64,000 nt of DNA. It comes from an uncultured Flaviramulus sp. GTDB taxonomy: Bacteria > Bacteroidota > Bacteroidia > Flavobacteriales > Flavobacteriaceae. Positions 43,582 to 62,328 of the stretch are shown here, one piece after another. The number at the start of each line of letters is the position of its first letter. Position 1 is the first letter of the stretch. The notes beneath the pieces were generated by a model. It was not told the origin of the DNA, did no database searches, and worked only from the letters and a program-made list of their open reading frames with translations. Position numbers and translations under genes: made by a program. The stretch is from positions 496,001-560,000 of the forward strand of contig CANMUP010000001.1 of NCBI GenBank assembly GCA_947501105.1, read 5' to 3'.

Positions 43582-43668
43582 CGTCATTGCGAAGCAAATT
43601 TTTTTATTTGCTGTGGCAATCTGTTTCTTTTAAAAAGATTACTTCGTCGTTTACTCCTCGTAATGACG
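43582..43668 (+). repeat. 84-87 bp palindromic repeat, intergenic copy before pheS
   Basis: Outer arms CGTCATT / AATGACG; inner AATCTGTTT...AAAAGATTAC inverted segments; an extra hairpin AGCAAAT...ATTTGCT at 43592-43613. Total 87 bp. Same family as 53425-53510, 60083-60166 and the metG copy at 61735-61819. Confidence 0.85.
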
Positions 43669-52468: not shown

Positions 52469-52564
52469 GGGCGTTCCCTTAAAACGCTTATGGCGTTATA
52501 AGGTCAGGCTATACGTTATATCTTTTGCAAAAAAGCAAAAGGATGCCACTTCTATCCTTAACGC
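52469..52564 (+). repeat. Dispersed GGGCGTT...TAACGC repeat, copy 2
   Basis: Same ordered blocks as 43492-43568: GGGCGTTCCC, AAGGTCAGGCT, TCTATCCTTAACGC. It holds two extra hairpins, AACGC-TTATGG-GCGTT-like (52483-52497) and CTTTTGC-AAAAAA-GCAAAAG (52522-52541). It occupies most of the 235-bp gap between the bacilliredoxin and TerB-DnaJ genes. Confidence 0.75.
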
Positions 52565-52637
52565 AGTACAACTGTAACAAAATCATAAAAAATTAAACTA
52601 ACAATAGTATATTTACGCTTTAATAAACAATAAACAC

Positions 52638-53424: not shown

Positions 53425-53510
53425 TTGTCATTTCGACAGCAGGAGAAATCTCATAATTATGTAAGCAAAAGGATGTGATATCTTACTCGTGCCTCATTTC
53501 GACATGACAA
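53425..53510 (+). repeat. 84-87 bp palindromic repeat, intergenic copy after the TerB-DnaJ gene
   Basis: Outer arms TTGTCAT (53425-53431) and ATGACAA (53504-53510), 86 bp in all, with CATTTCGACAGC at the left and CATTTCGACATG at the right. Inner part GAAATCTC...GATATCTTACTCG resembles the other copies. Confidence 0.8.
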
Positions 53511-60014: not shown

Positions 60015-60082
60015 AATGTAAATGTACATTTTTTTTCTAAATCGGAGTCAAAATGCGTACTTTTACGGCTTCAAAATAACTC

Positions 60083-60166
60083 GTCATTCCGAGCGAAGCG
60101 TGGGAATCTGTTTAATTTAATCTCTTGTTTATGAGTTTGCCACAGTCGTGCCTCCCTTGCAATGAC
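60083..60166 (+). repeat. 84-87 bp palindromic repeat, copy just upstream of metG
   Basis: Outer arms GTCATT / AATGAC, 84 bp, left end CCGAGCGAAGCGTGGGAATC and right end CCACAGTCGTGCCTCCC. It stops 26 bp before the metG ATG, so the metG promoter or leader is made partly of this element. Confidence 0.82.
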
Positions 60167-60192
60167 AATTATAATTTAATTTTTTGAGATTG

Positions 60193-62328
60193 ATGAACAA
60201 ACCAAAACGATATACAATTACTGCTGCGCTTCCTTATACTAACGGACCGATTCATATAGGTCATTTGGCCGGGGTTTATGTGCCAGCAGATATTTATGCA
60301 CGCTATTTACGTTTAACAGGAGAGGATGTGCTTTTTGTTTGCGGGAGTGACGAACATGGTGTGCCAATTACTATTAAAGCAAAGAACGAAGGGGTTTCCC
60401 CACAGGATATTGTTGATAAATATCATGCAATAATTAAAAACTCTTTTGAAGAATTTGGAATTACTTTCGATAATTATTCGCGTACGTCAGCCAAGATTCA
60501 TCACGATACAGCATCAGAATTCTTTACAACTTTAAATGATAAAGGTGAGTTTTTAGAAGAAACAACTGAGCAATTATACGATGAGGAAGCTAACCAGTTT
60601 TTAGCTGATCGTTTTGTAATTGGGACTTGCCCTAAATGTGGAAATGAAGAGAGTTATGGCGATCAATGTGAAAATTGCGGAACAAGTCATAATGCAACCG
60701 ATTTAATAAACCCTAAATCTGCTATAACAGGCAATGTGCCCTCTTTAAAACAAACAAAACATTGGTTTTTACCTTTAGATAAACACGAAGCATTTTTAAA
60801 AGAGTGGATTTTAAAAGGGCATAAAAAAGATTGGAAACCTAATGTATATGGGCAATGTAAATCTTGGATTGATGATGGGTTAAGACCACGAGCGGTTACT
60901 CGCGATTTAGACTGGGGAATTCCAGTACCAGCAGAGGGAGGAGAAGGCAAAGTACTTTACGTTTGGTTTGATGCGCCAATAGGTTATATTTCTTCAACTA
61001 AAGAATGGGCGGCAAGAGAAGGAAAAGATTGGGAGCCTTATTGGAAAAGCGAAGACACAAAATTGGTGCATTTTATAGGGAAAGATAATATTGTATTTCA
61101 CTGTATTATTTTCCCAGCTATGTTAAAAAGTGAGGGCTCTTACATTTTACCTGAAAATGTGCCTGCCAATGAGTTTTTGAATTTAGAAGGCAATAAACTA
61201 TCAACCTCTAAAAATTGGGCGGTTTGGTTACCAGAATATTTGGAAGACTTCCCAAATCAACAGGATGTATTGCGTTATGCTTTAACAGCTAATGCGCCTG
61301 AAACAAAAGATAATGATTTTACCTGGAAAGATTTTCAGGCAAGAAATAACAATGAGTTAGTTGCCATTTTCGGTAATTTTATTAATCGTGTGGTGGTATT
61401 AACTAACAAATATTATAGCGGAATTGTGCCAGCACCTAATGCATTAACTCAAGTAGATGAAGACACTTTAGCTACTGTAAAAGCATATCCAGATGTGATT
61501 ACCAGTTCCATTGAACGTTATCGTTTTAGAGAAGCCGGACAAGAACTTATGAATTTAGCTAGATTAGGAAACAAGTATTTAGCAGATGAAGAACCATGGA
61601 AAGTTATTAAGGTTGATGAAGATCGAACAAAAACGATTATGTATGTTGCTTTACAAATTGCATCAGCTTTGGCAACCTTGAGCGAGCCTTTTTTACCGTT
61701 TACATCTAATAAATTGAAAAATATTCTTGGTTTACGTCATAACGAGGAGCAAAGCGACGTGGTTATCTCTTCAATTGAAAAGATTGCCACAACTCATAAA
61801 AATGAGTCTCGCAATGACGCTTTATCTTGGAATGATATAAGCTCTAAAAACGTTTTGTTACCAGCAGGTCATCAAATAGGAAAGGCAGAATTGCTTTTTT
61901 CTAAAATTGAAGATGCTACAATTCAAGCACAATTAGATAAATTAGAAGCCAGTAAAAAAGCAAACGAAATTGCAAATGCTGTCGTAGAACCTCAAAAAGA
62001 CACTATCACTTTTGAAGATTTCACCAAATTAGACATTCGTGTGGGGACTATTCTAGAAGCTGAAAAAATGCCAAAAACTAAAAAGCTTTTAAAGCTTAAA
62101 GTAGATACAGGTATTGATGTTAGAACAATTGTTTCTGGGATTGCAGAAAGTTTTACTGCCGAACAGGTGCTTGGTAAAAAAGTAACAGTTTTAGTCAATT
62201 TAGCTCCAAGAGCTCTCCGTGGTGTTGAAAGCCAAGGTATGATTTTAATGACTGAAACTCCTGATGGTAAATTAGTGTTTGTAAATCCTGATGGTGCAAG
62301 TGCTGAAAATGGGTTAAGTATTAGCTAA
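60193..62328 (+). CDS. metG: Methionyl-tRNA synthetase with an in-frame palindromic repeat
   Basis: 711 residues from [18 protein letters not shown] (60193); the TTG at 60184 adds only MRL. HIGH (21-24), the zinc pairs CPKCG and CENCG, and KLSTS (335-339) mark a class I MetRS. The C-terminal tRNA-binding (Arc1p/EMAP-like) domain starts [27 protein letters not shown]. The 85-bp palindromic element 61735-61819 is read in frame and encodes about residues 515-543, beginning [10 protein letters not shown] and ending NESRNDA. It sits between the anticodon-binding helices and the linker [15 protein letters not shown]. No stop or frameshift results, so the enzyme should be full length and functional. 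Confidence 0.95.
61735..61819 (+). repeat. 84-87 bp palindromic repeat, in-frame copy inside metG
   Basis: Outer arms CGTCATAACGAG and CTCGCAATGACG pair at 10 of 12 positions; inner arms GTGGTTATCT and AGATTGCCAC pair at 8 of 10. The peptide it encodes is like those produced when this kind of repeat is translated elsewhere (recalled RHCEE-SD-AIS type peptides). Confidence 0.88.

Follow-up and report, generated by a model that had tools for sequence, protein, structure and literature searches.

A CGTC-tagged palindromic repeat dimer read in frame within the MetG linker, at a site that holds other repeats in relatives among the Flavobacteriaceae

The gene encoding methionyl-tRNA synthetase in the window, the whole stretch of 64,000 nucleotides that was analysed, contains a segment with the features of a genome repeat, raising the question of whether a repeat entered this essential gene and, if so, how it came to be kept. 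The metG gene (60193..62328, + strand) encodes a protein of 711 residues with domain matches to tRNA-synt_1g (catalytic, residues 8-400), Anticodon_3 (anticodon-binding, residues 412-522) and tRNA_bind (C-terminal tRNA-binding, residues 615-702), and is the only MetG match in its own genome at E<=1e-50. The 85-bp segment (61735..61819, + strand), with the sequence CGTCATAACGAGG...CGCAATGACG, encodes residues 515-542 and the first base of codon 543 in the variable linker that joins the anticodon-binding domain to the C-terminal tRNA-binding domain. The open reading frame runs through the segment without a stop, in agreement with the first-pass annotation, which had described a dispersed palindromic repeat translated in frame with the addition of about 28 residues.

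The palindromic character was confirmed by folding, for which z-scores of -4.93 (RNA) and -3.46 (DNA) were obtained and none of 200 shuffled sequences folded as well. The segment is a head-to-head dimer with outer ends that read CGTCAT...ATGACG on both sides. The right unit (61781..61819, - strand), which reads CGTCATTGCGAG...GGCAATCT on the minus strand and was matched by the monomer pattern at G000:C1:557781-557818, forms a hairpin with a stem of 5 bp, an internal loop and a further 6 bp, and the CGTC tag lies unpaired outside the stem. The left unit (61735..61769, + strand) forms no clear hairpin by itself and folds no better than shuffles; the last 34 bases of this unit (GTCATAACGAGG...GTTATCTC) are identical in a copy at G000:C3:417326. 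No Rfam family matched the element at its gathering score. The metG copy is flanked on both sides by TTTA, as might be expected of a target-site duplication, but the flanks were not relied on since inspection of the other copies by eye revealed no consistent duplication.

A search of the 4.19 Mb genome with blastn returned seven strong places including the query (E<=3.3e-10), the remaining 16 rows having E>=0.57. The best of the other copies was 82% identical over 84 bases with an E value of 3.6e-16. These results bear out the earlier description of the segment as dispersed. A covariance model, R1, was built from the seven strong places, metG copy included; the metG copy scored 98 bits with this model, of which it is itself a source. 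Among the best 150 candidates scored, R1 identified at least 14 distinct sites (18 rows) at E<=1e-4, a count that is therefore a lower bound. The monomer pattern gave 30 matches at approximately 24 sites, while the reversed pattern gave none. Merging the R1 and monomer sites by hand yielded approximately 28 sites, a site in a GHMP kinase gene included, of which three are inside genes (metG, trpF and the GHMP kinase), showing that the element is dispersed and mainly intergenic. Among the other sites, an open frame of at least 150 residues spans the repeat only for two dimers at the 5' ends of longer frames (L194/195 and L198/199); these were not counted as in-gene since, by eye, they lie upstream of the likely starts. 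The genome-wide count of copies in coding sequences that the first-pass annotation had proposed is thus three, that in the GHMP kinase gene being weak. A 280-residue frame ends within a further dimer copy (L057:1501-1590, at G000:C2:476331), which provides its final codons (RHSEE) and stop.

The first-pass annotation had placed three intergenic copies of similar arms and length in the window, a statement that has to be amended: with R1 at E<=10 and the monomer pattern, two dimers and one short monomer were found. The first dimer (43582..43668, - strand; 95.2 bits) is also a source of R1. The second (60082..60167, + strand) is diverged (27.7 bits, E 1.2e-5), is not a source of R1 and lies 25 bases upstream of the metG start. 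The monomer match (53427..53451, + strand; G000:C1:549427-549451) spans 25 bp. Dimers detected with R1 also lie upstream of metG in six other loci (L025:3665-3749, L026:1367-1477, L045:1331-1417, L047:3073-3158, which is the same as L077, L080:2400-2485 and L130:2401-2479). With these six and the copy in the window, the stretch just ahead of metG has the look of a second repeat site common to several loci.

The copy at G000:C2:179224 is the same element as that in metG, read in the same frame as KRHYEELSDVVISSKKTDCHDFEKKYPND, and sits in the N-terminal part of a 622-residue TrpF-TrpB frame with PRAI and PALP domains (L002). A TrpF match was present in 28 other genomes, and in 21 of these it consisted solely of two pieces that omit the inserted residues, the query ending at 86-94 and resuming at 112-142. 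Three of the 28 trpF loci scored carry a repeat: the dimer in G000, a sequence in G003 with three mismatches to type A (the types are defined below) that also fits the CGTC rule exactly, and a sequence in G023 with three mismatches to type B. In 168 control windows, the CGTC rule was matched exactly by none, and one window came within six mismatches of type A, B or C. The trpF gene thus repeats the metG picture on a small scale. Fused frames are not confined to L002, the trpF matches of G001, G002, G016 and G019 lying in frames of 609-623 residues. The third in-gene copy, in a GYDIA-type GHMP kinase (L070; the name rests on NCBIfam NF040656, Pfam giving no match), is monomer-like and slightly decayed, is read as DEITSSLAPRNDI and has an R1 E value of only 0.92; a cleaner version of the repeat occupies the same place in the GHMP kinase of G003.

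The MetG linkers of relatives were collected from 110 loci (30 and 80), which gave 108 distinct proteins including that from the window. In the 109 other loci (107 distinct proteins), no R1 dimer was detected inside metG at E<=0.01, the R1 matches there lying outside the gene. The peptide was found in none of the 107 other distinct sequences, which sets aside the possibility, raised at the outset, that all MetG orthologues carry it with diverged codons. The expectation of orthologues without the stretch, in which NILGL would run directly into DALSW, did not hold either: the aligned linker interval, defined as the stretch between LK.IL and the next W, varied from 18 to 69 residues (49 here), and 26 of the 107 other distinct sequences have a different repeat at the site of the element, representing at least three more types.

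The repeats were classified as type A (TGTCATTCTGAACTTGATTCAGAATCT), type B (GTCACGTCGAGCGYAGTCGAGACGT), type C (GTCAGTTCGAGTG...GTATCGAGAAC) or by a general CGTC rule. The patterns of A, B and C were drawn from the linkers themselves and then sought genome-wide; cut-offs (four mismatches at most for A, B and C, none for the CGTC rule) were set post hoc, with the data already seen. With these post hoc cut-offs, 27 of the 108 linkers were scored as occupied, that from the window included: eight with type A, eight with B, seven with C, three by the CGTC rule (the dimer described here, L091 and L130) and L035, assigned by hand as mixed. The remaining 81 were scored 'none', among them some with weaker matches and two from Lutibacter (L107 and L111). 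The two Lutibacter linkers have a further repeat type, outside the counts, whose units stand in tandem and in frame and have TTCGACTCCGCTCAG and CTGAGCGGAGTCGAA-like arms. As a control, 5133 linker-sized windows from the rest of the same genes were scored; the best match to A, B or C had six mismatches, and no window fitted the CGTC rule exactly, one doing so with one mismatch. Synonymous recodings of the linkers (200 per row) scored as well in 0-6.5% for calls of A, B and C, and in 0, 0 and 3.5% for the three CGTC calls, the linker from the window being equalled by none of its 200. Palindrome strength alone was rejected as a test; by this measure, 7 of the 108 linkers surpassed synonymous recodings (p<=0.05) and 12 of 108 surpassed other windows of the gene. 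Since the folds of several repeat types are weak or bulged, consensus matching at the DNA level was used instead. Type A units at the metG site of relatives have a stem of 8 bp and a loop of 5 nt with the CGTC tag unpaired outside the stem, and types B and C as single units fold no better than shuffles.

The types are genome repeats in their own right. Type C was detected in 12 of 60 genomes, type B in 18 and type A in 8, with no match to the reversed control in any. A joint B/C pattern was matched in all nine of the genomes behind nine relatives' loci (2 to 45 matches each; control 0). The metG copies themselves were among the genome-wide hits in G001 (B), G003 and G034 (C), G030 (A) and Confluentibacter (C), that in G034 being the sole exact type C match of its genome. 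In two genomes the metG insert has exact copies elsewhere. For the 42-mer in metG of Confluentibacter, an identical copy lies between two long open frames. The type A 27-mer in metG of G030 recurs unchanged three times: two of these copies are next to genes, and the third (L248:1531-1557) is read in frame in a 412-residue 3-hydroxyacyl-CoA dehydrogenase.

Taken with the repeat identity of the segment, these results indicate that 61735-61819 is very probably one copy of a dispersed palindromic dimer with CGTC tags, which arrived in the MetG linker in the lineage of this genome and is tolerated there as a passenger, at a linker that is a recurrent site for such repeats. A second course of events, possible although we regard it with some doubt, is that a single ancient insertion took place in the metG linker of an ancestor, that its type was then changed in place by gene conversion or recombination with the repeats of each genome, that it was lost or decayed in many lineages, and that the dimer described here is the latest exchange. 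The distribution of the repeats was examined on a quick MetG tree from which the linker columns were excluded and for which SH-aLRT support only was computed. Presence and absence of a repeat required 18 changes on the tree, below the 19-27 (mean 24.3) of 200 shuffles, as a single ancient insertion would lead one to expect. Type required a minimum of 13 changes among the 27 occupied rows, where shuffles gave a mean of 15.1 and a range of 11-18, so that types scatter nearly as in the shuffles. The clustering of presence and the near-random distribution of type indicate that presence is partly inherited and that type turns over fast. Sister rows of different type (pairs L024/L025, L026/L045, L076/L080 and L075/L078) were found for the genome of the window (CGTC dimer) and G002 (C, four mismatches; support 99), G003 (C) and G001 (B; support 95), Confluentibacter (C) and a MAG (A; support 100), and Seonamhaeicola (C) and Hyunsoonleella (A; support 90).

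In most rows the start of the insert after LK.IL shifts by no more than one or two codons, in line with one ancestral event, whereas the inserts of L091 and L130 start approximately 18-24 bases further on. Type A and the dimer are read in one phase and types B and C in another, so that no single peptide is conserved, a result that also speaks against one ancient insertion; the B and C peptides are alike at their start (N-V-x-S-S). Distant genera have metG inserts of type C that resemble one another in the inner, variable part, suggesting that some were perhaps inherited or transferred and counting against wholly independent insertions. The state of trpF points the other way: G000 and G003 have a repeat at the site, and G001 and G002, which belong to the genus of G000, do not. 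As far as these alignments indicate, the metG linker is a recurrent site of putative landing or exchange for several repeat types in two reading phases across the Flavobacteriaceae. We lean towards the broader proposal that certain loops in this family (the MetG linker, the TrpF loop and the GHMP kinase loop) serve durably as places where short palindromic repeats of different kinds land. The loop of an essential enzyme would then change, even among members of a single genus, as mobile repeats repeatedly come in, replace one another and decay, and not through point mutation.

For entry of the dimer in this lineage, the favoured explanation, the proposed sequence of events is as follows. A copy of the dimer would have arrived in the linker that joins the anticodon-binding domain to the C-terminal tRNA-binding one, and selection on the essential gene would have retained in-frame events. 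The insert would persist since it leaves the frame open and the linker accommodates approximately 28 extra, probably disordered residues; from the open frame, MetG is presumably made with the insert in place. In an AlphaFold2 model of MetG (30 sequences), residues 516-542 had pLDDT values below 50, between better-scored helices at residues 502-511 and 546-551, and residues 391-510 in ten-residue blocks scored 80-97 with one block at 60. The mean pLDDT was 57.9 with 332 of 711 residues below 50, and because the model is poor overall the low score of the linker is weak evidence for an unstructured insert. Most likely the peptide has no function of its own and is carried as a passenger. It is improbable that the peptide, or an RNA hairpin, is under selection, for example by slowing translation between the domains or by acting on the metG mRNA: the metG copy folds well as RNA and DNA and repeats recur in the linker, as that explanation would have it, but the peptides differ between type A, types B and C and the dimer, and the dimer is present in only one of 108 linkers with no called repeat in 81. 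The notion of an ordinary, fast-evolving linker that resembles a repeat by chance or by convergence at the protein level draws on the variation of linker length among relatives and is hardly tenable against the 84-base likeness to another genomic copy, the failure of recodings and control windows to equal the linker under the CGTC rule, and the presence of the same element in the same frame of trpF.

The element resembles the superfamily of CGTC-tagged REPs, which are described as having a CGTC (or TGTC) end outside the stem, a stem starting with AT, head-to-head dimers and a mostly intergenic location with some intragenic copies, and which seem to be without a dedicated transposase (Di Nocera et al. 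2013, PMC3733652). The metG dimer has in common with them the tag outside the stem (right unit), the AT at the beginning of the stem, the head-to-head arrangement and dispersal mainly between genes, with a few copies inside them. Its stems are longer and interrupted, unlike those of the families CGTC-1 to CGTC-4, which have stems of 8-9 bp and loops of 4-5 nt; it is the type A units in metG of relatives that fit this geometry. The same source reports CGTC repeats from five phyla including the Bacteroidetes, with 'G. forsetii' named, in-frame copies in other phyla, CGTC and GTAG REPs inside genes, tRNA synthetase genes of three named species among them, REPs that differ between two Xanthomonas species at roughly one position in recB, and the assignment of RPE-6 and RPE-4 of R. 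conorii to the CGTC repeats; 'metG' does not occur in its main text (PMC3733652). Part of the novelty that the first-pass annotation saw in a protein-tolerated element in Bacteroidota is thereby lost, while the in-frame occurrence in the essential metG stands. We take 'G. forsetii' to be a Gramella.

In Rickettsia, the palindromic elements RPE-4, RPE-6 and RPE-7 are found in frame in genes that include two tRNA synthetases, in solvent-exposed parts, and different RPE groups occur in the same gene of different species; the authors preferred one diverged origin over insertion at a hotspot, which they called not negligible (PMC3767692). The likeness that the first-pass annotation drew to these elements is well founded, a dispersed palindromic repeat being read in frame in metG, trpF and the GHMP kinase gene. 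The present case differs in the phylum, in the occurrence of several types within one genus and in the two genomes where a metG insert recurs exactly outside genes, the latter two features favouring new insertion or exchange. Among the titles and abstract openings of open-access papers surveyed, nothing was found on repeats in metG or on the recurrent use of one linker in Flavobacteriaceae. In the RepRanger paper, REP counts are tabulated for species of Flavobacterium, and the word 'intragenic' is absent (PMC12306157). In-frame palindromic repeats are thus already known, and what is new is one linker repeatedly occupied by several repeat types. The in-frame repeats of the Rickettsia type are hereby extended to an essential gene of Bacteroidota with many parallel cases at one site. 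The choice between insertion at a hotspot and one diverged ancestral insertion (PMC3767692) becomes testable in free-living bacteria, and mobile repeats are pointed to as a source of new protein sequence in linkers.

An origin as a REP or REPIN mobilised by a RAYT was considered and rejected. In REP/RAYT systems, short palindromes are thought to be moved in trans by Y1 transposases. The genome contains two PF01797 matches, one a fragment and the other a gene of 196 residues, and no CGTC dimer was seen beside either. The 196-residue Y1 transposase gene (L182, at G000:C3:718214) is flanked by four copies of a different repeat, starting TTATATGTCATAGC. Two further features were recorded in the window. 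A Flavo-1 RNA (RF01705) at 52498-52577 (- strand) scored 53.4 bits, over the gathering score, and a direct repeat with an 81-bp period at 1992-2633 comprises six overlapping registered copies that are 72-84% alike to the reference.
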